Below are positions 10,736-47,791 of a DNA stretch of 64,000 nt, in pieces. The notes beneath the pieces were generated by a model, which was not told where the DNA came from, did no database searches, and was given only the letters and a program-made list of their open reading frames with translations. The translations under genes and the position numbers were made by a program. The DNA comes from Cryobacterium sp. PH31-L1 (lineage in GTDB: Bacteria > Actinomycetota > Actinomycetes > Actinomycetales > Microbacteriaceae): positions 1 through 64,000 of the forward strand of contig NZ_JASISM010000003.1 in assembly GCF_030063145.1 (NCBI RefSeq), read 5' to 3'. Numbering within the stretch: position 1 is the stretch's first letter; each line of letters opens with the position of its first letter.

Positions 10736-11944
10736 GTGACACCAGCTCGACGCCCGACCCCGCGCGGCCGCCGCCGACTCACCCGCGGCAGCATCGCGCT
10801 CATTGCAACGAGTGTGGCGATCGTGGCCACTGGCCTGCTGGCCGGCTTTCGGGTCGACCTGTATGACGTCGCCCCCGACGATCCGGCAGCGCGCGCCAGC
10901 GAGCTGACAACCAACGATGTCGTGGGTATCCGTACCTTTGCGCCCGGCGACGACGTGACCGTCACGACCGATGTCGTCTACGGCACGCAATCCGACGGTG
11001 CGCTGCTCACCCTCGATGTCTGTTCGCCGACTCCCCCGCGATCAACCAGCACTCCCGACCCGTCTGACACCGCGCTCGATGGCACAGCACGCGACGATAC
11101 AGCACGCGGCGGCACAGCACGCGGCGATACAGCGGATGGCGTGGCCGGCGGTTCCGCAGACGCCGTTCTGCCGGGCGCGGGCACCGACACGGGCACCGAA
11201 GCTGAGGCCGCGATGCCGTCCGACGCCGCGACATCCGCTCCTGAGCACTCGCTCCTGCCGGCCGTCATCTCGGTGCACGGCGGCAGTTGGGCCCGCGGTG
11301 ACAAGGGCAACAGCGACTGGCGCCTCGTCTGCGAATGGCTGGCGAGCGAGGGATTCGTGGCCTATTCGGTGAACTATCGGCTGGTGCCCGACGCCGTCTT
11401 TCCGGCCGCGATCGATGATCTGAAGCTCGCCGTGGAATGGGTGCGTGACCTGGACAACGCCGAGGAGTACGGCATCGACCCCAACCAGATCGGGGCGTTC
11501 GGCGGGTCGGCCGGCGGCAACCTCGTTGCCCTGCTCGGCACGAGCGGCCGCGGCGCGCTCACGACCGACGCACGTATCGCCGCGGTGGCCGAGCTGTCGG
11601 GGCCGGTCGACCTGCGGGCATCCGGTCTGGTCAACGCCGTCGACGGGCTTACGCGCATCACCCGCAACTACCTGGGCTGTACGAACATCAACCGGTGCGC
11701 TCAGTCCGTCGACGCCTCGGCCTCGAGCCGACTCGACCGCAGCGACCCGCCGGTGTTCATCGGCACCTCCTCTGACGAATTCATTCCACTGAGCCAGTCG
11801 ACCGAGTACGCCGCGCAACTGGAGAGCCTGGGCATCCGCACCGAGCTCGTGGTTGTGCCCGGAGACCTGCACTCGATCGGCATCCTCGACGAGGGCATGC
11901 GCACCCGGGTCGCGTCGTTTCTGCACGCCGAACTGGGCTGGTAG
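10736..11944 (+). CDS. Membrane-anchored alpha/beta hydrolase, esterase/BD-FAE type
   Basis: The 402-residue protein begins with a basic stretch and one transmembrane or signal segment (about residues 21-42), so the catalytic domain probably lies outside the cell. The hydrolase domain has the oxyanion motif HGGSW (about 180) and the nucleophile motif GGSAGGN with Ser258; Asp in a DEF block and a C-terminal DLHS histidine complete a plausible triad. This is the carboxylesterase/feruloyl esterase-like subgroup. Between about residues 100 and 175 a low-complexity insert carries repeats such as TARDDTARGG-TARGDTA, encoded by short direct DNA repeats near 11085-11140. GTG 10736 is the first start in the frame after the upstream inverted repeat. 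The substrate is unknown. Confidence 0.8.
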   Translation: MTPARRPTPRGRRRLTRGSIALIATSVAIVATGLLAGFRVDLYDVAPDDPAARASELTTNDVVGIRTFAPGDDVTVTTDVVYGTQSDGALLTLDVCSPTPPRSTSTPDPSDTALDGTARDDTARGGTARGDTADGVAGGSADAVLPGAGTDTGTEAEAAMPSDAATSAPEHSLLPAVISVHGGSWARGDKGNSDWRLVCEWLASEGFVAYSVNYRLVPDAVFPAAIDDLKLAVEWVRDLDNAEEYGIDPNQIGAFGGSAGGNLVALLGTSGRGALTTDARIAAVAELSGPVDLRASGLVNAVDGLTRITRNYLGCTNINRCAQSVDASASSRLDRSDPPVFIGTSSDEFIPLSQSTEYAAQLESLGIRTELVVVPGDLHSIGILDEGMRTRVASFLHAELGW

Positions 11945-12055: not shown

Positions 12056-12823
12056 TCAGCGCGGCCGGCCGCCGATCCGACGGGACAGCTCCGCGGCCGT
12101 CGCCGCCACGGTTTCGGCGAGGGCCGGCCAATCCCCGGGTGAGAACCGGTCCTGCGCGAAGGTCACCGCAATGGCGGCGGCGGGCCAGCCGGCGTGGTCG
12201 TGCACGGCGAGCGCAACGGAGGCGATGCCGGGCGTGATCTCGCCGTTTTCGGTGGCGTAGGCATCCGTTTTGACCCGGTCGAGCACGGCTCGAAGCTCGA
12301 GCCTCGTGCGCGGGCCACGGCCGTCGCGTTGTTCCAGAGCCGCCTGGTTGGGATAGAGCGCACGCAACTGGGCGGCGGGCAGGGCCGCGAGCAGGGCGCG
12401 TCCGCTGGCCGTGAGCTGCGCGGGCAGCCGCACCCCCACGTCGGAGACGAGGGAGGGGCGATGGGCCGCACGCTCCTCGACCAGGTAGATCACGTCACGC
12501 CCGTGCAGCACCACGAGGTGCGCGCTCTCCCCCAGCCGGTCGACGAGCTGGGCGATCAACGGGCGGCCGAGCCGGGAGAGCGGTTCCTGCCGACTGAACC
12601 CCGAGCTCAGTTCGAAAGCGGCGATGCCGAGCCCGTAGCGGTGTTCCTCCGGCAGGTGCACCACGAACCCCTCCGCCACGAGCACGTCGAGCAGTTGGTA
12701 CACGGTCGAGCGCGGCAGGTCGAGGGCGGTCGCCAGCGCTGCCGCGGGGATCGGACCGCGCTGGGCGGCGAGATGCGTCAATACGCGCAGGGTGCTTTGC
12801 GCGGCCGGAACCTTTGACGCCAT
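12056..12823 (-). CDS. IclR family transcriptional regulator
   Basis: A 255-residue protein of typical IclR size: a winged helix-turn-helix at about residues 8-70 (QSTLRVLTHLAAQRGPI, then LDLPRSTVYQLLDVL) and a C-terminal effector-binding domain with LTASGRALLAALP and the conserved small-ligand loop GITPGIASVALAV-like segment. It is divergent from hutH, so histidine ammonia-lyase is the likely target, and a perfect palindrome lies between the two. ATG 12823 has AAAGGA about 7 nt upstream; the frame stays open further up but that part runs into the operator region. The ligand is not known; urocanate would be a natural guess. Confidence 0.88.
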   Translation of the reverse strand: MASKVPAAQSTLRVLTHLAAQRGPIPAAALATALDLPRSTVYQLLDVLVAEGFVVHLPEEHRYGLGIAAFELSSGFSRQEPLSRLGRPLIAQLVDRLGESAHLVVLHGRDVIYLVEERAAHRPSLVSDVGVRLPAQLTASGRALLAALPAAQLRALYPNQAALEQRDGRGPRTRLELRAVLDRVKTDAYATENGEITPGIASVALAVHDHAGWPAAAIAVTFAQDRFSPGDWPALAETVAATAAELSRRIGGRPR

Positions 12824-12851
12824 CACGAATCCTTTCAGAGCGGATGCTCGC

Positions 12852-12867
12852 GTCCGGTATCCCGGAC
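12852..12867. promoter_or_regulatory. Palindrome between iclR and hutH, candidate operator
   Basis: gtccgg (12852-12857) and ccggac (12862-12867) are perfect inverted repeats around tatc. The size and base composition match IclR-type sites, and it is placed so that one regulator could control both divergent genes. Confidence 0.55.
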
Positions 12868-12921
12868 ACCGTCCAGCGTATCGCCCTGTTGCCCGGGCCC
12901 GCGAGGGTGTGCAATCGAAAC

Positions 12922-14505
12922 ATGACCCTTGCAGCAACGCCCAGAACCGACCGGATCAACCCGAGCGGGGCGTCCGCTTCGAGCGTTGTCGTGGGAGCCG
13001 GAGCGCTCTCCTTTGCCGATGTGATCGCCGTCGCCCGCCACGATGCGCTGGTCACCCTCGACCCCACCAGCCTCGAACAGGTCGCGGCGACCCGCACGAT
13101 CATCGACGCCCTCGCGGCGGATACCGAGCCGCACTACGGCATCTCCACCGGCTTCGGGGCTCTCGCGACGACGTTCATCACCACCGACCGGCGCGCCCAG
13201 CTGCAGGCGAGCCTCGTGCGCTCGCACGCTGCTGGCAGCGGCCCCGAGGTGGAACGCGAGGTCGTGCGCGCCCTCATGCTGCTGCGGCTTTCCGCGTTGA
13301 TGACCGGTCGCACCGGTGCGCGCCCGGCCACCGCCGAGACCTACGCGGCCGTGCTGAACGCGCAGATCACACCGGTCGTTCACGAATACGGATCGCTCGG
13401 CTGCTCCGGCGACCTCGCCCCACTCGCCCACTGCGCCCTCGTCGTGATGGGCGAGGGCCAGGCGCGCGACGCGGCCGGCACCCTGATCAGCGGCGACGAA
13501 GCCCTCAAAGCCGCCGGCATCCCTCCGGTCGTTCTCGCCGAGAAAGAGGGCCTCGCCCTGATCAACGGCACCGACGGCATGCTCGGCATGCTCGTGCTGG
13601 CCCTCGACGACCTCGCCCGCCTGCTCGTGACAGCCGATATCGCAGCAGCGATGAGCGTGGAGGCTCTGCTCGGAACGGATGCCGTCTTCGCGGCCGATCT
13701 GCAGCAGCTGCGGCCCCAGCTCGGCCAGGCCGACAGCGCCGGAAATCTGCGCCGCCTGCTCCACGGCTCAGGCCTGTTGGCCAGCCACGCCGGCCCAGAA
13801 GACACGTCGGTGCAGGACGCCTACTCGCTGCGCTGCGCCCCGCAGGTGCACGGTGCCGCGCGCGACACCGCCGCGCATGCCGCCCTCGTGGCCGGCCGCG
13901 AACTGGCCAGCGCTATCGACAACCCGGTCGTTACCGTCGACGGGCGAGTAATGTCGAACGGTAACTTTCACGGCGCCCCGCTCGGCTACGTGCTCGACTT
14001 TCTCGCCATCGCCTCAGCGGACGTCGCGAGCATGAGCGAGCGCCGCACCGACCGTCACCTCGATGCGAGCCGCAGCAAGGGCCTGCCGCCGTTTCTCGCC
14101 CACGAAGTTGGCGTCGACTCCGGGCTCATGATCGCTCAGTACACCGCCGCCGGGATCGTGTCGGAGTTGAAGCGGCTGGCTGCACCGGCATCCGTTGACT
14201 CAATTCCGTCGTCGGCGATGCAGGAGGACCACGTATCGATGGGCTGGCACGCCGCCCGCAAGCTGCGCCGCTCGCTCGACGGGCTCGGTCGGGTGCTCGC
14301 GATCGAGATCATGACCGCCTCCCGATCGCTCGACCTCCGGGCGCCGCTCGTGCCGGCCGCGGCGACCGGAGCGGTGCGCGACCTCGTGCGCACCGTCGCT
14401 GCCGGCCCCGGGCACGACCGGTTTCTCTCCCCCGAAATTGAGGGGGTAATGGCGCTCGTGGCGTCGGGCGCGGTGCGCTTGGCTGCCAGCCCGGGGCTGG
14501 TGTAA
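12922..14505 (+). CDS. hutH: Histidine ammonia-lyase
   Basis: HutH removes ammonia from L-histidine to give urocanate. The MIO prosthetic group forms from an internal tripeptide, here Cys161-Ser162-Gly163 within GSLGCSGDLAPLAH; most bacteria have Ala-Ser-Gly, while Cys at the first position is, as I recall, found in actinobacterial HutH. Other family blocks are YGISTGFGAL, LINGTDGM, DAYSLRCAPQVHGA and the C-terminal SIPSSAMQEDHVSMG. The 527-residue length is normal. ATG 12922 is chosen because the 36 codons before it read through the IclR palindrome; no clear ribosome binding site is present. hutU, hutI and hutG are not nearby, so this gene stands alone with its regulator. Confidence 0.93.
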   Translation: MTLAATPRTDRINPSGASASSVVVGAGALSFADVIAVARHDALVTLDPTSLEQVAATRTIIDALAADTEPHYGISTGFGALATTFITTDRRAQLQASLVRSHAAGSGPEVEREVVRALMLLRLSALMTGRTGARPATAETYAAVLNAQITPVVHEYGSLGCSGDLAPLAHCALVVMGEGQARDAAGTLISGDEALKAAGIPPVVLAEKEGLALINGTDGMLGMLVLALDDLARLLVTADIAAAMSVEALLGTDAVFAADLQQLRPQLGQADSAGNLRRLLHGSGLLASHAGPEDTSVQDAYSLRCAPQVHGAARDTAAHAALVAGRELASAIDNPVVTVDGRVMSNGNFHGAPLGYVLDFLAIASADVASMSERRTDRHLDASRSKGLPPFLAHEVGVDSGLMIAQYTAAGIVSELKRLAAPASVDSIPSSAMQEDHVSMGWHAARKLRRSLDGLGRVLAIEIMTASRSLDLRAPLVPAAATGAVRDLVRTVAAGPGHDRFLSPEIEGVMALVASGAVRLAASPGLV

Positions 14506-39624: not shown

Positions 39625-40893
39625 ATGGTGAAAATTCTGGTCCTTGGTTCCGGTGCCCGCGAGCACGCCATCATCACCGCGCTGATTCGTGAGCAGCCGC
39701 GGCCGACCGTTGAGTGCGCCCCCGGCAACGCCGGGATCGCCGCTGAGGTACCGTCCGTCAACCTTGACCCGAACGACCCGGTTGCCGTGACCGACTATGC
39801 AGTACTGCACAGCATCGAGCTCGTCGTGATCGGGCCGGAAGCCCCACTCGTGGCTGGTGTCGCCGACGCCTTGCGCGCACGCGGCATCGCCGTATTCGGG
39901 CCCGACCAAGCCGCCGCTGCCCTCGAGGGCAGCAAGACCTTCGCCAAGCGCATCATGGACGAGGCGGGCGTTCCCACCGGCCGTGCAGTGCGCGCCGGCA
40001 CCCTCGCCGAGGCCGAATCCGCCCTCGACGAGTTCGGCGCCCCCTACGTCGTGAAGGCCGACGGCCTCGCCGCCGGCAAGGGCGTGCTCGTCACGTCTGA
40101 CCGCCCAGCCGCCATCGCGCACGCGACCTACTGGCTCGAACACGGCGGTGTGCTCATCGAAGAGTTTCTCGACGGTCAGGAGATCTCATTGTTCCTGCTC
40201 AGCGACGGCCAGAACGTGCTGGCGCTCTCCCCCGCCCAGGACTACAAGCGAGCACTCGACGCAGACGCCGGCCCCAACACGGGCGGCATGGGCGCCTACT
40301 CGCCACTGCCCTGGCTCGACGCCGAGTTCGGCAGTGAAAACGCGTTCGTCGACGAGATCATCGACACCGTCGCGCTGCCAACCGTGCGCCAGCTCGCGAC
40401 CGAGGGAACCCCGTTCGTCGGGCTGCTCTACTGCGGGCTCATTCTGACGGATGCCGGCATTCGTGTGATCGAATTCAACGCACGGTTCGGGGACCCCGAG
40501 ACGCAGGTCGTTCTGCCGCGCCTGGTGACGCCGCTGTCGAGCCTGCTGCTGGCCGCCGCGACCGGCGCGCTCGGCGGGCACCCCCGGCCTGAATTCTCGT
40601 CCGACGTCGCCGTCACCGTCGTACTGGCGAGCGAGAACTACCCGCAGGAACCGCTGGTCGGGCGCGAGATCACCGGCCTCGATGCCGCCCTGGCCGTGGA
40701 GGGCGTCACGATCGCCCACGCGGCGACCCGGCTCGACGGCGACACACTGGTCTCCACCGGCGGACGGGTGCTCAGCGTCGTCGCCGTCGGCGCCACCTTC
40801 GCCGAGGCCCGCGCCCGCGCCTACGAGGCTCTCGGCCACGTATCGCTCGCCGGCGCCCACTTTCGCACCGACATCGCCGCCCGTGTGGCGTGA
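39625..40893 (+). CDS. purD: Phosphoribosylamine-glycine ligase
   Basis: PurD joins glycine to phosphoribosylamine with ATP, the second step of purine synthesis. The 422 residues show the ATP-grasp order: [14 protein letters not shown] at the N-terminus, [53 protein letters not shown] and [12 protein letters not shown]. The start is either ATG 39625 or the next codon, GTG 39628; the -10 hexamer so close upstream suggests a leaderless GTG, giving the usual KILVLG start. Its stop codon is 17 bp from the purC start. Confidence 0.95.
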
Positions 40894-40910
40894 TGCGGGA
40901 GAATGAACGG

Positions 40911-41864
40911 GTGAGCCAATCTGAGCACGTGTCCCCCGCATCCGCTGTCGCCGCGCTTGAGGGGTGGACCAGTGTCTACTCGGGCAAGGTGCGCGACCTA
41001 TACATTGAAACAAGTCTGACAGCGGATGCCGCCCCCTCCCTCGCCACCGCGGCCCGCGTGCTCGTGGTGGCCAGCGACCGGGTGAGCGCGTTCGACCACG
41101 TGCTCGAGCCCGGAATTCCGGGCAAGGGAGAGCTGCTCACGACACTGAGCCTGTGGTGGTTCGACCGGTTGACCGGAGTGCCGAACCATCTCGTCGCCGA
41201 CCACGAACAGGTCGGCAACGCCGTGCGCGAGCTCATCCCGGCGAGCGTCGCCGGCCGGGCGATGCTCTGCCGAACCCTCGACATGTACCCGATCGAGTGT
41301 GTCGTACGCGGCTACCTCACCGGCAGTGGCTGGAAGGAATACCTCGAAACCCAGTCGGTGTGCGGCATATCGCTGCCGGCTGGACTGCAGAACGGCGACC
41401 GCCTGCCCGAACCCATCTATACCCCGGCCTGGAAGGCCCCGATGGGCCAGCACGACGAGAACATCTCGTTCGAGCGCACCGTCGAACTCGTCGGGCCCAC
41501 CATTGCGGCCGAACTGCGCGACCTCTCGCTGGCCCTGTTTCGGGCCGCCGGAACGATCGCCGAGAAGGCCGGCGTCATTCTCGCCGACACCAAGTTCGAG
41601 TTCGGTGCCGACCGACACTCCGGCGTGACCGTACTCGCCGATGAGGTGCTCACGAGCGATTCGAGCCGCTATTGGGATGCCGCAGCCTGGCGAACCGGCA
41701 CCACCCCGGAGACCCGGATGGCGAGCTTCGACAAGCAGATCGTGCGCAACTGGCTCTCCGCGAACTGGGACGGCGCCGGCATGCCGCCCGAGCTGCCGGC
41801 CGAGATCGTGGAGCAGACCGCGGCCCGCTATCGCGAACTGCTTGAACGCCTAACCGGCGCTTGA
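40911..41864 (+). CDS. purC: SAICAR synthase
   Basis: PurC adds aspartate to CAIR with ATP, the eighth step of purine synthesis. Motifs in order: SGKVRDLY at the phosphate loop, VVASDRVSAFD, GELLTTLSLWWF, IECVVRGYLTGSGWKEY, PIYTPAWKAP, GVILADTKFEFG and ADEVLTSDSSRYW. The length of 317 residues is normal for the larger, eukaryote-like SAICAR synthases common in actinobacteria. GTG 40911 has GGGAG about 9 nt upstream; a GTG/ATG at 40890/40893 overlapping the purD stop is an alternative. It is co-transcribed with purD. Confidence 0.94.
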   Translation: MSQSEHVSPASAVAALEGWTSVYSGKVRDLYIETSLTADAAPSLATAARVLVVASDRVSAFDHVLEPGIPGKGELLTTLSLWWFDRLTGVPNHLVADHEQVGNAVRELIPASVAGRAMLCRTLDMYPIECVVRGYLTGSGWKEYLETQSVCGISLPAGLQNGDRLPEPIYTPAWKAPMGQHDENISFERTVELVGPTIAAELRDLSLALFRAAGTIAEKAGVILADTKFEFGADRHSGVTVLADEVLTSDSSRYWDAAAWRTGTTPETRMASFDKQIVRNWLSANWDGAGMPPELPAEIVEQTAARYRELLERLTGA

Positions 41865-41990
41865 GCACACAGCGACACAACAACACCGCGACGCAACAAC
41901 CGCGGCAGGCCTTCCCACGACGGGCAAACGGGGGTGACGCAACCCGGCGGATCGCGGAATAGCCGGGGCGGCGCATCTGTTGTGCCTGCT

Positions 41991-42863
41991 GTGACCCTAA
42001 CCGCGAAAGATCTGCTGGCCGCCGACACCGGAATGGGGGCGGTGACCCTGCGCGTGGGCAACCTCGACGCCATGATCGCATATTACCGCGACATCGTGAC
42101 GCTGGAGCGGCAAAGCCATGACGGCCCGGTAGCGGTACTCGGGCGCGGCCAGACCCCGCTCGTGCTTCTGCAGCACGCCCCCGAGCTCAAGGCCGCTGAA
42201 GCACGCTCGGCCGGTCTCTATCACACGGCGATTCTGTTCGACACGCAGGCTGACCTCGCCGCCGCCGTGTACTCGATCGGCACAAAAGCCCCCGGAACGT
42301 TCACCGGCAGTGCCGATCACCTGGTCAGCCAGGCTTTCTACTTCACCGACCCCGAGGGGAACGGCATCGAGCTGTACTGGGACCGCGACCGCACCCTGTG
42401 GAGTTGGGCCCCCGGCCAGGTCGAAATGGCCTCGCTCTACCTCGACCCGAACGCATTCATTTCCGAGCACATGTCCGCTGAACCGAGCGAGGGACACGCC
42501 ATCGTCGGCCATATTCACCTCTCGGTGGGCGACGTCGCCAGCGCCCGCGAGTTCTACGTGAATCGGCTCGGCTTTGCGGCGACCGCGAACTTCGGGCCGT
42601 CAGCGCTGTTCGTCTCGGCCGGTGGCTACCACCACCACATGGCCATGAACACCTGGGAGAGCTCGGGCAGCGGCAAGCGCCGCCTGGCCCTCGGCCTCGG
42701 CGAAGTCAGCATCATCGTGCCCAGCACCGACGACGTGAGCGCTCTGGGCGAGCGGATGGCCCACTACAGGGTCGACACCACTCACGACGGCCAGACCCTC
42801 GCCTTCGAGGACCCGTGGGCCAACCGCATCCGAGTGAGCGCAGCCGACGCACCGACCGTCTAA
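41991..42863 (+). CDS. VOC family protein, catechol 2,3-dioxygenase/glyoxalase-like
   Basis: The protein has two tandem VOC half-domains: the first begins MGAVTLRVGNLDAMIAYYRDIV and includes LYHTAILF and FTDPEGNGIELYWD; the second includes VGHIHLSVGDVASAREFYVNRLGF and ends with a FEDPWANRIRV strand. Paired VOC modules bind one divalent metal and act as ring-cleaving dioxygenases, glyoxalases or resistance proteins. The family here is often annotated as catechol-2,3-dioxygenase (CatE-like), but the substrate is open. The start is uncertain: GTG 41934, 41982 and 41991 are all in frame, and none has a clear ribosome binding site. It lies between purC and the convergent TetR gene; the 65 bp after purC contain short CAACA-type direct repeats. 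Confidence 0.8.
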   Translation: MTLTAKDLLAADTGMGAVTLRVGNLDAMIAYYRDIVTLERQSHDGPVAVLGRGQTPLVLLQHAPELKAAEARSAGLYHTAILFDTQADLAAAVYSIGTKAPGTFTGSADHLVSQAFYFTDPEGNGIELYWDRDRTLWSWAPGQVEMASLYLDPNAFISEHMSAEPSEGHAIVGHIHLSVGDVASAREFYVNRLGFAATANFGPSALFVSAGGYHHHMAMNTWESSGSGKRRLALGLGEVSIIVPSTDDVSALGERMAHYRVDTTHDGQTLAFEDPWANRIRVSAADAPTV

Positions 42864-42866
42864 CCC

Positions 42867-43586
42867 TCACCGGGCGGCGCGGGCCGCCCGGCGAGTCAGG
42901 CCGTGCACGGTGGCCTGGTAGTCCTTCACGTTGAGCGGGCGGCCGGGCAGCTTGGCCCGCGGCGCGTCGGGGGCGCGTAGGCCGTCGAGCACGATCGAGA
43001 GCTGACGGCGCCACTGGCCGGCGTAACCGTCGCCGAGGCCGCCGAGCGACCCGACCATGGTGACGAGTACGGCGAGGTCGACCGCGTCGACGTCCCGGCG
43101 CAGGGTGCCGTCCTTCTTGGCGCGGGCCACCAGGCTCGCGATGAAGCCGTCGAACTCGGCAGCGGGCCTAGCTGACGGGTCGAGCTGCGCCATGCGGCGC
43201 AGGATCGGCGGCAGCGACGGGTCAGCGACGAGCCATTCGGCGACCCGTTCGGTGTACACGACGAGCGCTTCCCACGGGGTGGGGGCAGCCTCAATCTCAC
43301 CGCGCACCGCGTGCAGTTCCGCCAAAGCCAGATCGTACAGCGCCCGAACCAGGTCATCCCGCGTCGAAAAATTGCGGTACAGGGTCGCCGCGCCCACCTC
43401 GGCCTGACGCGCGATCTCCTCGAGCGAGGCGTCGATCCCGTACTGGGCAAATTGAGCGCGAGCCGACACAACGAGGCGGTCCCGATTCAGCCGGGCATCG
43501 CGGCGGCGGGGCGCAAGCGCTGCGGTTCGCTCGGGTACAGACGGGGCTGGCACGCCATCCTGGGGCTTTCGGGTCGGCGGGGTCAT
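42867..43586 (-). CDS. TetR family transcriptional regulator
   Basis: The 239-residue protein has a TetR helix-turn-helix (about residues 35-80; RLVVSARAQFAQYGIDASLEEIARQAEVGAAT followed by LYRNFSTRDDLV, where LYRNF is the recognition-helix end). The C-terminal domain is of the solvent/AcrR-like type. It is divergent from kynA across 96 bp and convergent with the VOC gene, so it could control the kyn operon, itself, or both. TAGACT ends 7 nt before ATG 43586; the frame upstream of that ATG crosses the promoter and is rejected. The ligand is unknown. Confidence 0.85.
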   Translation of the reverse strand: MTPPTRKPQDGVPAPSVPERTAALAPRRRDARLNRDRLVVSARAQFAQYGIDASLEEIARQAEVGAATLYRNFSTRDDLVRALYDLALAELHAVRGEIEAAPTPWEALVVYTERVAEWLVADPSLPPILRRMAQLDPSARPAAEFDGFIASLVARAKKDGTLRRDVDAVDLAVLVTMVGSLGGLGDGYAGQWRRQLSIVLDGLRAPDAPRAKLPGRPLNVKDYQATVHGLTRRAARAAR

Positions 43587-43593
43587 GCGCTCC

Positions 43594-43599
43594 AGTCTA
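43594..43599 (-). promoter_or_regulatory. -10 element (TAGACT) of the TetR gene
   Basis: On the minus strand TAGACT ends 7 nt before ATG 43586; leaderless arrangement. Confidence 0.4.
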
Positions 43600-43628
43600 G
43601 AACTTTGACCTGCACGGTTCGCTGTGGT

Positions 43629-43648
43629 GTTGCGCCGACAGCCGCAAC
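43629..43648. promoter_or_regulatory. Inverted repeat between tetR and kynA
   Basis: gttgcg (43629-43634) and cgcaac (43643-43648) are perfect inverted repeats, 35 bp before kynA. It is a weak candidate operator for the divergent TetR protein. Confidence 0.3.
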
Positions 43649-43682
43649 CTGCGCACAATTTGAACAAGCCGAACGGAACCCG

Positions 43683-44537
43683 ATGACTCTCAAGAACAAC
43701 ACCCGTGACTTCGACCCCGAGATCGTCACCGATTTTCGAGAGAAGATGAGCTACGGGGCGTACCTCAACCTACCGACCCTGTTCGACTCCCAGAAGCCGG
43801 TCAGCGTACCGGAACACCACGATGAGCTGCTCTTCATCATTCAGCACCAGACCACCGAGCTCTGGCTCAAGCTCGTGCTGCACGAACTGCAGGCTGCCAT
43901 CGAGGCGCTCCGGCAGGACCAGCTCGCACCGGCTCTCAAGGGCATCGCCCGGGTCAAGCACATTCAGCGCACCCTGACGGAGCAGTGGTCGGTACTCGCG
44001 ACCCTCACGCCCACCGAATACGCCCAGTTTCGGCATTTTCTCGGAAACTCCAGCGGCTTTCAGTCATACCAGTATCGCGCGGTCGAGTTCGCGCTCGGTA
44101 ACAAGAACCGTCGCATGCTGTCCGTCTTCGAAGCGGATGCCCCGGCCCACGCCCTGCTCACCACCACGTTCGAAGCGCCCAGCCTCTACGACGAGTTTCT
44201 GCACTACCTTCTCCGGGCCGGCTACGACATTCCCGCCGCTGTGCTCGAGCGCGACGTCACCGAGGCGTGGACCTACCACCCCGAACTCGTGCATACCTTT
44301 AGAGGAATATACGAGAACGCCTCTGAGCACTGGGCTGCCTACGAGGCCTGCGAAGAACTCGTCGACCTCGAGGACAACTTTCAGCTCTGGCGCTTTCGCC
44401 ACCTCAAGACGGTGCAACGCATCATCGGAATGAAGCACGGCACCGGCGGATCCAGTGGAGCGGCCTTTCTGCAGAAGGCCCTCGAACTCACCTTCTTTCC
44501 CGAGTTGTTCGCGGTGCGCACGGAGATCGGCGCGTGA
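43683..44537 (+). CDS. kynA: Tryptophan 2,3-dioxygenase
   Basis: KynA opens the indole ring of L-tryptophan with O2 to give N-formylkynurenine, using heme. The 284-residue protein has the family blocks MSYGAYLNLPTL, FIIQHQTTELWLKLVLHEL, SSGFQSYQYRAVEF, NFQLWRFRHLKTVQRIIG (containing the proximal heme histidine) and KHGTGGSSGAAFL. Length and order are those of bacterial TDOs. It is the first gene of kynA-amidohydrolase-kynU; its stop codon overlaps the next start (GTGA). The ATG is preceded by only a weak ribosome binding site. Confidence 0.95.
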   Translation: MTLKNNTRDFDPEIVTDFREKMSYGAYLNLPTLFDSQKPVSVPEHHDELLFIIQHQTTELWLKLVLHELQAAIEALRQDQLAPALKGIARVKHIQRTLTEQWSVLATLTPTEYAQFRHFLGNSSGFQSYQYRAVEFALGNKNRRMLSVFEADAPAHALLTTTFEAPSLYDEFLHYLLRAGYDIPAAVLERDVTEAWTYHPELVHTFRGIYENASEHWAAYEACEELVDLEDNFQLWRFRHLKTVQRIIGMKHGTGGSSGAAFLQKALELTFFPELFAVRTEIGA

Positions 44538-45433
44538 CCACTCACTTTCTGGTCGGCCGAGGCACGGTACTGCCGGGCTTCCTCGACGCGCACCTGCACC
44601 TCGCCATTATCGACGGGACAGTTCTGCCGAGCGGCGGAATCGCCCGGGCCATCGACCTCGGCGGCTGGCTGCCCGACGGCCTCCGCACGTCTATGCCCGA
44701 TCTGGCATACGCACACCAGTTCATCACGGCTCCCGGCGGCTACCCCAGCCGGGCCAGCTGGGCCGAGCCCGCCTGGAGCTGCGCGGTCGCCTCCACCGCG
44801 GATGCCGCCACCGCCGTCGACCTGCAGGCCGCGGCTGGGGCATCCGTTTTGAAAATCACCCTCAACTCGGTCGCCGGCCCGGTCTTCGGCGTCGAGGTCT
44901 TGGCCGCGCTCGTCGGGCGGGCACACGAACGTTCGCTGCCGGTCGTGGCGCACGCGGAGGGTGCCGGGCAGGCCGATCGCGCGTTTACGGCTGGAGTGGA
45001 CGCGTTCGCGCACACCCCGTTTTCGGAGCGACTCGCCGATGATCTCGTGACCGCGATGGCCGCCCGCATGACCTGGATCAGCACCCTGGACGTTCACGGC
45101 TGGGGTCGCCCCACTGCCGCGTTCGAGATTGCCAGCGACAATCTGCGTCGGTTCCACGCGGCCGGCGGGCGGGTGTTGTACGGCACCGATCTAGGCAACG
45201 GGCCGCTGCCGCTCGGGTTGAACGCGGGTGAGATCGCGGCACTGCTCGAGGCTGGGCTGACTCCCGGCGAGGTCCTGACCGCCCTCTGCTCGCCGGCACC
45301 GCTCGGCCTGACCCTCTCCGATAGCCGGGTGACCTTCATTCCGGGCGAACGGCCGCGCGATCCCCTGGACTTCACCGACTGGCTCTGCACCGCCCGCGCC
45401 CTCACCCGCCCCGAACTCGAGGTTCTCGCATGA
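44534..45433 (+). CDS. Amidohydrolase family protein in the kynurenine operon
   Basis: This 299-residue protein has a metal-dependent amidohydrolase core: His20-x-His22 (GFLDAHLHLA) at the first strand, later VVAHAEG and FAHTPF histidines, and a catalytic-type Asp in YGTDLG. The chain begins almost at the first metal motif, so the N-terminal part of the usual beta-sandwich domain is missing. It overlaps kynA at its start (GTGA) and kynU at its end (ATGA). The step between those two enzymes is hydrolysis of N-formylkynurenine, normally done by the unrelated KynB, which is absent here. I infer that this protein is the formamidase; direct evidence for this activity is lacking. Confidence 0.8.
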   Translation: MTTHFLVGRGTVLPGFLDAHLHLAIIDGTVLPSGGIARAIDLGGWLPDGLRTSMPDLAYAHQFITAPGGYPSRASWAEPAWSCAVASTADAATAVDLQAAAGASVLKITLNSVAGPVFGVEVLAALVGRAHERSLPVVAHAEGAGQADRAFTAGVDAFAHTPFSERLADDLVTAMAARMTWISTLDVHGWGRPTAAFEIASDNLRRFHAAGGRVLYGTDLGNGPLPLGLNAGEIAALLEAGLTPGEVLTALCSPAPLGLTLSDSRVTFIPGERPRDPLDFTDWLCTARALTRPELEVLA

Positions 45434-46722
45434 CTCCCAGCTTCACCAGCTCAACCGGCCGGGGCGCCCACCTCGCCTTCGCGCGCCGGATGGACCGCAT
45501 CGATGGCCTCGCGCACTACCGCGCCCGGTTTCTCGGCACCGACGCTGACCCCGCGACGGCCAACCCGCGCGCCTACCTCGACGGCAATTCGCTCGGCCGC
45601 CCACTGCGGGCCAGCGCCGAACGCATCGCCGACTTTCTCGTCAAGGACTGGGGCACCCGGCTCATTCGCGGCTGGGACGAGCAGTGGATGGAGCTGCCCC
45701 TGCAGATTGGCGACGACCTCGGCCGCACCTGCCTCGGTGCCGCGGCCGGCCAGGTCTTCGTCGGCGACTCCACCACCGTGCTGCTCTACAAACTGGCCCG
45801 CGCCGCCGTGGATTCGCGGCCGCGCCGCACCGAGATTGTGGTCGACAGCGACAACTTTCCCACCGATCGGTACATTCTGGAGGGCATTGCGCGCGAGCGC
45901 GGCCTGACCCTGCGCTGGATCGAATCCGATACCGAGGGCGGAGTGACCGCCGATCAGGTGCGCAGCGTGGTCGGCCCGCAAACCTCGCTCGTGCTCCTCA
46001 GCCACGTGGCCTACCGTTCCGGCTACCTCGCCGACATGCAGGCCATCACCGCCGTCGCCCACGAACACGACGCCCTCGTGCTCTGGGACCTCAGCCACTC
46101 CGTCGGGTCGGTTCCGGTCGAGCTGGATGCCTGCGATGTCGACCTCGCGGTCGGCTGCTCCTACAAATACCTGAGCGGCGGGCCGGGCGCGCCGGCGTTC
46201 GGCTATGTGAAGAGTGATCTGCAGGACGTGCTGACCCAGCCGATCCAGGGCTGGATGGGTGCGCAGGCCATCTTCGAGATGGGGCCAGGATATGTGCCGG
46301 CCACCGGCATCCGTCGGTTTATGAGCGGCACTCCCGCAGTCGTGGGCATGCTCGCCATGCAGAACACGATCGCCATGCTCGATGAGGCCACGATCGGGTC
46401 GGTGCGCGCCAAATCGGTCGCGCTGACCGAGTTCGCCATCACCCTCGTCGATGAGTGGCTGGCCCCGATGGGCGTCACCGTGGCCTCGCCACGCGAGCAG
46501 ACGCATCGCGGCGGTCACGTGACCATCAACCATCCGCTCATGCGCCAGGTCACAAAAATTCTGTGGGACAACGATGTCATTCCCGATTTTCGCAGCCCCA
46601 ACGGCCTGCGACTCGGCCTCGCGCCGCTCAGCACCAGCTTCGTCGAAACCTACGACGGAGTGGCCGCCGTGCGCGACGTGCTGCGCGGCATCCTGCTCGG
46701 CCAGAAGGGCATCTCGGAGTGA
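45430..46722 (+). CDS. kynU: Kynureninase
   Basis: KynU splits kynurenine into anthranilate and alanine with PLP. The 430-residue fold-type I enzyme shows FLGTDADPATANPRAYLDGNSLGR near the N-terminus (read as the blocks YLDGNSLG), DSDNFPTDRYI, VLLSHVAYRSG, ALVLWDLSHSVGS with the PLP aspartate, and Lys246 in GCSYKYLSGGPG. It overlaps the amidohydrolase gene (ATGA). Anthranilate could feed tryptophan re-synthesis or be degraded; no NAD-pathway genes are next to it. The promoter of purS lies 31 bp beyond its stop codon. Confidence 0.95.
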   Translation: MTPSFTSSTGRGAHLAFARRMDRIDGLAHYRARFLGTDADPATANPRAYLDGNSLGRPLRASAERIADFLVKDWGTRLIRGWDEQWMELPLQIGDDLGRTCLGAAAGQVFVGDSTTVLLYKLARAAVDSRPRRTEIVVDSDNFPTDRYILEGIARERGLTLRWIESDTEGGVTADQVRSVVGPQTSLVLLSHVAYRSGYLADMQAITAVAHEHDALVLWDLSHSVGSVPVELDACDVDLAVGCSYKYLSGGPGAPAFGYVKSDLQDVLTQPIQGWMGAQAIFEMGPGYVPATGIRRFMSGTPAVVGMLAMQNTIAMLDEATIGSVRAKSVALTEFAITLVDEWLAPMGVTVASPREQTHRGGHVTINHPLMRQVTKILWDNDVIPDFRSPNGLRLGLAPLSTSFVETYDGVAAVRDVLRGILLGQKGISE

Positions 46723-46752
46723 CACGCGCCGAGCCGCCCGAGTCGCGGCCTG

Positions 46753-46758
46753 TAGAAT
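46753..46758 (+). promoter_or_regulatory. -10 element (TAGAAT) for purS-purQ
   Basis: TAGAAT lies in the gap after kynU and would start a transcript with a leader of about 45 nt before GTG 46809. The matching -35 region is poor. Confidence 0.35.
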
Positions 46759-46808
46759 TACAGAGATTTGCCACGACTATTAGCCCCAGACTGTATGCGG
46801 AGTGCCCA

Positions 46809-47093
46809 GTGCCAACGATCGTCGTCGAAGTAATGCCCAAGGCTGAGTTGCTTGACCCCCAGGGCAAGGCCGTCGCCGGCGCCCTCGGTCGCCTCGGTCA
46901 GACCCAGTCAGCGCTGGCCAATGTCACCGGCGTGCGCGTCGGCAAGCGCTTCGAGATTTCCATTGACGGCGAAGCGGATGCCGCTACCCTCGCGGCTGTG
47001 CGCGAGCTTGCCGACACCGTGCTGTCGAACTCTGTGATCGAGGATGTCGTCGGCATCCACGTGCAGAACGCGCCCTCGGCAGCGGTCGTCTGA
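46809..47093 (+). CDS. purS: Phosphoribosylformylglycinamidine synthase subunit PurS
   Basis: PurS is the small structural subunit that links PurQ and PurL in the PurSQL complex. The 94 residues follow the family pattern: [21 protein letters not shown], then [12 protein letters not shown] and [17 protein letters not shown] 46809 has GGAG 7 nt upstream. The stop overlaps the purQ start (TGATG), so the two are coupled. The partner purL is about 15 kb away in this window. Confidence 0.93.
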
Positions 47094-47791
47094 TGCGCAT
47101 CGGCGTCGTCACCTTTCCCGGCTCGCTCGATGATCGTGACGCTGCGCGCGCGATCCGCCTGGCCGGCGCCGACGCGGTAGCCCTCTGGCACGGCGACCAC
47201 GACCTGCACGGGGTCGACGCCCTGGTGCTGCCGGGCGGTTTCAGCTACGGCGATTACCTACGCGCCGGCGCCATCGCAAGCCTCTCGCCGATCATGACCG
47301 AGGTCATCGACGCGGCGAACAAGGGCATGCCCGTGCTCGGCATCTGCAACGGATTCCAGATGCTCACCGAGGCCCACCTGCTCGACGGTGGACTCATTCG
47401 CAACGACAAGGGCCGCTTCATCTGCCGCGACCAGGGGCTGCGCATCGAGAACAACGCGAGCGACTGGACAGCCGGATTTTCGGCCAACGCCGAGATCGTC
47501 ATCCCGCTGAAGAACGGCGAAGGTTCGTTCATGGCCAGCGCCGAGACCCTCACTGCCCTTGAGGGTGAGGGCCGCATCGTGGCCCGTTATATCGGCGGCA
47601 ACCCGAACGGCTCGCTGAACGACATCGCCGGCGTCACCAACGCCCGCGGCAACGTCGTCGGACTCATGCCGCACCCCGAGCACGCCGTCGAGGCCGGTTT
47701 CGGCCCCGACACCGACACCGCCATGGCGAGCGGCGTCGACGGGCTCGTTTTCTTCACCTCGGTCATCACCCAGGCGCTCATCGCCCGGTAA
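47093..47791 (+). CDS. purQ: Phosphoribosylformylglycinamidine synthase subunit PurQ
   Basis: PurQ is the glutaminase that supplies ammonia to PurL for FGAM formation. The class I amidotransferase triad is visible: the nucleophilic Cys in GICNGFQM and the His/Glu pair in MPHPEHAVE. Other blocks are [16 protein letters not shown] and [15 protein letters not shown]. The 232-residue length is normal. It overlaps purS by one base, and its last 14 bp overlap the end of the convergent sigma factor gene. Confidence 0.95.

Follow-up and report, generated by a model that had tools for sequence, protein, structure and literature searches.

An amidohydrolase encoded between kynA and kynU as a probable third type of kynurenine formamidase in Actinomycetota

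We analysed a window of 64,000 nucleotides from Cryobacterium sp. PH31-L1 (contig NZ_JASISM010000003.1, positions 1 to 64,000), in which a gene for an amidohydrolase-superfamily protein, here called AH, lies between the tryptophan-degradation genes kynA and kynU. AH is most probably a kynurenine formamidase with no homology to either KynB or the alpha/beta-hydrolase enzyme of animals. In a wider frame, it is likely to be a third, independently evolved N-formylkynurenine deformylase, drawn from the amidohydrolase superfamily, which many Actinomycetota use for tryptophan breakdown and which has also been recruited into at least one gene cluster resembling those for specialised metabolites (in genome G530). 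For the pathway's second step, many tryptophan-degrading actinobacteria seem to rely on this unrelated metalloenzyme, to which none of the databases searched assigns the role. The fold and the reaction are both known, and it is probably their pairing that is new. The three genes of the operon are as follows.

43683..44537, + strand: kynA, tryptophan 2,3-dioxygenase of 284 amino acids (TIGR03036 395.0 bits, cut-off 390.7; PF03301).
44534..45433, + strand: AH, amidohydrolase-superfamily protein of 299 amino acids with a GTG start, the proposed N-formylkynurenine deformylase (PF01979 32.4 bits, cut-off 25; ortholog family; AlphaFold model).
45430..46722, + strand: kynU, kynureninase of 430 amino acids with an ATG start (PF22580 and PF00266 over their cut-offs; TIGR01814 229.3 bits, below its cut-off of 246.4).

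The PF22580 match in KynU, over its own cut-off, is to the kynureninase C-terminal domain. Adjacent genes overlap by 4 base pairs at each junction, with GTGA shared by kynA and AH and ATGA by AH and kynU, so the coordinates and overlaps of the initial annotation were correct. The overlapping genes would be translationally coupled, and the three enzymes co-produced. The substrate, chemistry and metal identity that we infer for AH belong to the following scheme. KynA would open tryptophan to give N-formylkynurenine. The metal site of AH (His20-x-His22, Lys107, His140, His160 and Asp219) would then activate water for attack on the formyl carbonyl, yielding formate and kynurenine, and KynU would cleave kynurenine to anthranilate and alanine.

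Strong evidence for this scheme comes from the recurrence of the gene order. In a sample of 150 genomes of the family Microbacteriaceae, AH orthologs were called at E<=1e-44, the next match lying at 2.8e-22. Removal of two weak matches (G007 and G019; E>1e-23) took the count from 44 to 42, a broken copy in G141 being included. kynA was found in 52 of the 150 genomes, together with AH in 37 and without it in 15, an association with a Fisher p of ~1e-17; none of the Fisher values given here is corrected for shared ancestry. kynA lies directly upstream of AH in 37 of the 42 genomes, kynU directly downstream in 36, and both neighbours are present in 33. By comparison, none of 12 loci of AH paralogs (two of them short contigs) has a kynA or kynU match beside it, so that the linkage of the three genes exceeds chance. 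Those paralogs, and lower-scoring matches in other classes, were accordingly rejected as parts of the system. On a tree that places 54 AH rows together with 10 rows of paralogs, the AH sequences form a single clade with support of 100/99 by a careful method that excluded one badly cut row (L207); with that row included, a quick method gave 92.

A wider scan of contigs produced 483 pattern matches, 438 of which were confirmed as relatives (tblastn E<=1e-3; paralogs may be among them). We examined the best 80 of the 438, referred to below as the named loci. kynA upstream and kynU downstream were seen in 67 of the 80, one or both partners in some other arrangement in 11, and neither in 2, so that 78 keep AH with at least one partner. 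A strict scripted rule returned 59 of 80 for the full order, and reading by eye added eight loci (L136, L146, L147, L153, L155, L164, L175 and L179) to reach 67. Among the other arrangements, L173 has kynA only, at a contig end; L160, L165, L172, L181, L188, L193 and L194 have kynU only, L160 being at a contig end; L185 reads kynU-AH; and L182 and L190, both from Actinoplanes, read kynA-kynU-AH, which ties AH to the pathway rather than to a fixed arrangement of the genes. The two loci with neither partner are L158, which starts near a contig end, and L176. Cryobacterium contributes 38 of the named loci, 14 are assigned outside Microbacteriaceae and 3 have no family assignment. All 14 of the outside loci (Cellulosimicrobium, Oerskovia, Isoptericola, Rhodococcus, Nocardia, Saccharopolyspora and Actinoplanes) carry kynA, kynU or both beside AH. 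The initial annotation had proposed to check whether the order recurs in genomes lacking kynB, and it does: 33 of the 42 AH genomes and 67 of the best 80 named loci show it, and among the 150 family genomes, which the KynB search covered, the sole one with a KynB over the cut-off has no AH ortholog. In a class-wide sample of 393 genomes, a strong AH match (E<=1e-90) occurred in 21, plus the broken copy of G141, while kynA occurred in 242; AH is therefore one solution among several.

The protein itself belongs to the amidohydrolase superfamily, as judged from the PF01979 match over its cut-off, the complete HxH, Lys, His, His, Asp site and the TIM-barrel metallohydrolase fold. The general amidohydrolase model PF01979 was the sole match in a Pfam scan. 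A scan of NCBIfam gave one match, to the Xaa-Pro dipeptidase model NF051886, whose 49.6 bits are far below the cut-off of 500 and do not place AH in that family. AH had no match to PF04199 (E<=0.001) or TIGR03035 (E<=0.01) and so falls outside the cyclase family and KynB; it also lacked any alpha/beta-hydrolase match in the Pfam scan, and with its predicted metallohydrolase barrel it stands apart from the animal-type formamidases. We take the HxH, Lys, His, His, Asp pattern to be the metal site of the superfamily, and the roles given to Lys107 and Asp219 below are our assumption by analogy with it. The residues, none of which varies among the rows chosen for two alignments (30 of 30 and 49 of 49), are encoded at these positions.

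44591..44599, + strand: HxH metal-site motif, His20 and His22 of AH.
44852..44854, + strand: Lys107, expected carboxylated metal bridge.
44951..44953, + strand: His140, metal site.
45011..45013, + strand: His160, metal site.
45188..45190, + strand: Asp219 in YGTDLGNG, expected general base.

The first alignment holds 30 of the 42 family orthologs, omitting broken copies, those with unclear starts or over-long starts or ends, and near-copies. The second holds the window AH and 48 of the 80 named loci and spans six named families. Since the rows were chosen and intact, the counts of invariance refer to such rows. Alongside the six metal-site residues, the stretches GYP..W and YGTD.GNG are invariant. 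The AlphaFold model of AH is confident (mean predicted local distance difference test score 94.5, predicted template modelling score 0.92), and its best Foldseek match had E 5.7e-17. Among solved structures, those closest in fold are of arginine carboxypeptidases, prolidases and amidohydrolases that hydrolyse ochratoxin (3be7, 3mtw, 2qs8 and 8ihq), with Z of 26 to 28 and root mean square deviations (rmsd) of 2.8 to 3.3 Å over 281 to 288 residues at 17-24% identity; for 3be7, Z is 28.4 and rmsd 2.8 over 283 residues. AH shares with this group the fold and the pattern of the superfamily metal site. It differs in sequence, in its ties to kynA and kynU and in that it may lack the N-terminal strands, and the members of the group, by their titles, act on peptides or ochratoxin. 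That the structural relatives of the model are amide hydrolases is in keeping with formamide cleavage by AH and does not prove it.

The N terminus of AH is short. The initial annotation had AH starting at its HxH motif, which is nearly right: the motif comprises residues 20 to 22, with 19 residues ahead of it. A wrong start call was rejected as the cause, as the only start codon within reach in the window is the one at the kynA stop and the short form is common in Cryobacterium. In 31 of the 37 Cryobacterium loci for which a start was called, HxH comes after 10 to 24 residues, and this, together with the single reachable codon, makes the short N terminus look real. The short form recurs elsewhere too, the shortest being that of G041 with five residues before HxH, and many orthologs have about 50 to 67 residues in this region. 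In the one long form that was modelled, from Rhodococcus, the N-terminal part contains extra strands, which may belong to the accessory beta domain of the superfamily. On the AH tree the N terminus must have switched between short and long at least seven times, a figure that depends on predicted starts. The window AH and that of C. flavum are 96% identical.

We then considered what else could perform the deformylation in the source genome, a Cryobacterium assembly of 3.66 Mb in 33 contigs (99.99% complete). The genome gave no match to PF04199 and none to TIGR03035, so that a KynB hidden elsewhere was rejected and the initial statement that KynB is missing here extends to the whole genome. Nor did we find, at E<=1e-8, a formamidase-like alpha/beta hydrolase of the type that lies beside kynA in other genera. 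Neither PF04199 nor a formamidase-like hydrolase occurs in 11 of the 37 family genomes that have both kynA and AH, the source genome among them. KynB over the TIGR03035 cut-off is present in 1 of the 150 family genomes (G019, at L097), beside kynU and with neither an AH ortholog nor a TIGR03036 match for kynA. A second genome, G073, has a TIGR03035 match in two pieces, below the cut-off and also beside kynU, and has neither AH nor kynA.

Among the 15 genomes with kynA and without AH, four include an alpha/beta-hydrolase gene in the kyn group, in the orders kynA-kynU-hydrolase (G026 and G093), kynA-hydrolase (G116) and hydrolase-kynA (G066). Two genomes without kynA (G045 and G132) carry such a formamidase-like hydrolase beside kynU. 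PF20434 matched the three copies that were scanned, and the copies of G026 and G093 contain HGGYW and HGGFW; an alpha/beta-hydrolase domain with HGGxW and a serine nucleophile is what we take to be the hallmark of the animal-type formamidase. The G026 protein matches the solved kynurenine formamidase 4e11, presumably of animal origin, at E=2.1e-4, although it has better matches among solved chains, 23 in number and for the most part esterases and lipases. A formamidase-like hydrolase (E<=1e-8) was detected in 1 of 37 genomes with kynA and AH (G075, at 4.8e-9) versus 6 of 15 with kynA and no AH (p=0.0014), and beside kynA or its operon in 0 of 37 versus 4 of 15 (p=0.005). Such a distribution is what the substitution of one enzyme for another at a single step would look like. 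The suggestion in the initial annotation of a non-homologous formamidase is thus supported by the recurrent kynA-AH-kynU order, the scarcity of KynB (1 of 150) and the hydrolase in the kyn group of four AH-less genomes.

AH can be compared with the enzymes known for this reaction. PMC4243253 describes KynB (PF04199/TIGR03035) as a metal-dependent amidase with a fold of its own and no relation to the serine enzyme of eukaryotes, and terms this a new amidase fold distinct from the amidohydrolase superfamily; PMC5341072 applies the superfamily name in a broader sense that takes in PF04199. AH would share with KynB the reaction, the place in the pathway and metal-dependent hydrolysis with a site probably of two metals, whereas its fold differs and it matches neither KynB model. 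With the animal-type kynurenine formamidase AH would likewise have its reaction in common, and a relative of that enzyme stands beside kyn genes in AH-less genomes; the animal type is a serine hydrolase, however, and AH a TIM-barrel metallohydrolase. An amidohydrolase at the N-formylkynurenine step is already in print: for mycemycin biosynthesis, cleavage of N-formylkynurenine was assigned as a proposal to the amidohydrolase MymD/MyeD, whose step falls after that of a dioxygenase and before that of a kynureninase, and deletion of myeD abolished mycemycins A and B (PMC5867642). MymD has 513 amino acids versus 299 in AH, and MymD/MyeD is one step of antibiotic clusters (PMC5867642). In the open-licence literature we found no assignment of the 299-amino-acid AH family to N-formylkynurenine, nor an account of its spread or of a role in ordinary tryptophan breakdown.

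Several observations weigh against AH as the formamidase. The fold does not indicate the substrate, as it is shared most closely with solved carboxypeptidases, prolidases and ochratoxin hydrolases. Some PF04199 protein is present in 25 of the 42 AH genomes, though always with a score below the cut-off for KynB. Six small genomes with kynU-kynA (G010, G013, G067, G081, G104 and G144) have no AH, no PF04199 protein and no formamidase-like hydrolase, and G010, G013 and G067 also lack any PF20434 protein; G081 and G144 are 78% and 84% complete, and the kynA of G081 holds stops. The step therefore need not have a recognisable partner gene, and a genome that lacks a known formamidase is not in itself proof of such a role for a neighbouring gene. 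Five of the 42 family genomes have AH without adjacent kynA, and none of the five has a kynA match anywhere. PF01231, for an indoleamine dioxygenase that might supply the substrate in AH genomes lacking kynA, matched neither the 9 genomes scanned nor the control. In G141, a Cryobacterium, AH is a 144-amino-acid remnant (L079:6677-7111) that has lost the first metal histidine, while kynA and kynU are full length; a stop lies inside AH in G139 and G433; and in G106 kynA and kynU are each split in two pieces.

Some of these points would also suit a different division of labour, in which AH serves the pathway in another way, for example on some other amide or peptide derivative of kynurenine or anthranilate, and the formamidase is an alpha/beta hydrolase encoded at some other place in the genome. 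We consider this unlikely, though it is the best of the alternatives. Peptidases and amide hydrolases are the closest solved relatives of AH, and the six genomes just described have kynA and kynU with no formamidase detectable by these searches. Moreover, the source genome contains seven matches to the broad esterase family PF20434 of alpha/beta hydrolases. AH, which the initial annotation called the only candidate, is therefore the only one in the operon and not strictly in the genome. One of the seven lies in the window and is the best other candidate seen there.

Window 10736-11944: PF20434 alpha/beta hydrolase of 402 amino acids with an HGGSW motif and, as read by eye, a hydrophobic N terminus.

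Its HGGSW resembles the HGGxW motif of the animal formamidase. With its hydrophobic N terminus and a hutH-like (histidine ammonia-lyase-like) gene nearby at 12814-14505, both judged by eye, it looks like an exported esterase and is probably not cytoplasmic. The more specific formamidase-like hydrolase is, as described above, undetected in the source genome and found in just one of the 37 genomes with kynA and AH.

It is less probable still that AH acts after KynU, in which case kynureninase would take N-formylkynurenine itself as substrate and AH would remove the formyl group of N-formylanthranilate to give anthranilate. AH adjoins kynU about as often as kynA (36 and 37 of 42), and AH-kynU occurs with no kynA alongside in three genomes of the family sample (G004, G035 and G110) and at L165, L172, L181, L188, L193 and L194, four Frigoribacterium loci being among the cases of this kind. 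The gene of an enzyme acting only after KynU would be expected to stay with kynU, but G041, G051, G121 and G064 retain kynA-AH with no kynU next to it. In G530, an actinomycete of another family, a divergent dioxygenase gene (TIGR03036 217.1 bits) overlaps the AH gene, and no kynU match was found within the 45 kb read. The genes there, which resemble a specialised-metabolite group, are as follows.

L198:1869-7891: G530 group of divergent tryptophan dioxygenase, AH, P450, GNAT-type acetyltransferase and berberine-bridge-type oxidase.

Least credible of all is that AH takes no part in tryptophan breakdown and is a mere passenger, held in the operon by inheritance: most examined loci are from a single family and many of them share a chromosomal site close to pur genes, and a remnant persists in G141, but all six metal ligands are invariant in every one of the 49 chosen rows, which represent six named families, the same partners recur in different orders (kynA-kynU-AH in two Actinoplanes), AH accompanies a divergent dioxygenase in G530, and none of the 12 paralog loci is near kyn genes.

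If AH is indeed the kynurenine formamidase, a missing step of a textbook pathway is filled in a large bacterial group, where the second enzyme matches just a general 'amidohydrolase' model. Kynurenine formamidase would then comprise at least three unrelated enzymes for one job. A function would be predicted for dozens of examined genes and perhaps for many more (the 438 relatives, paralogs possibly among them), and AH would offer a marker for dioxygenase-fed biosynthetic clusters.

The AH-kynU pairs without kynA may, at a guess, live on external N-formylkynurenine or kynurenine. Beside such pairs a gene resembling S-adenosylmethionine-dependent methyltransferases was noted by eye, upstream in L063 and L065 and downstream of kynU in L061. 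AH has neither neighbour in G034 and G109. The six small kynU-kynA genomes correspond to loci L073, L074, L075, L076, L078 and L091, and in L074 a patatin-like gene, again identified by eye, lies between kynA and kynU.

A possible regulator of the operon is encoded next to it.

42867..43667, - strand: TetR-family regulator, divergent from kynA (PF00440 42.8 bits; open reading frame limits as listed, true start uncertain).

Of the 102 loci that have an AH match, 39 contain a homolog of this gene. Over window positions 39625-47791, the kyn operon, the divergent TetR gene and a glyoxalase-type gene sit between purD-purC-like and purS/purQ-like genes (pur names assigned by eye), and a purQ homolog is near AH in 51 of the 102 loci. 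The deformylase step would release formate, and purine synthesis consumes one-carbon units, a possible link to the pur genes; shared inheritance of the site is the simpler reading of this neighbourhood.

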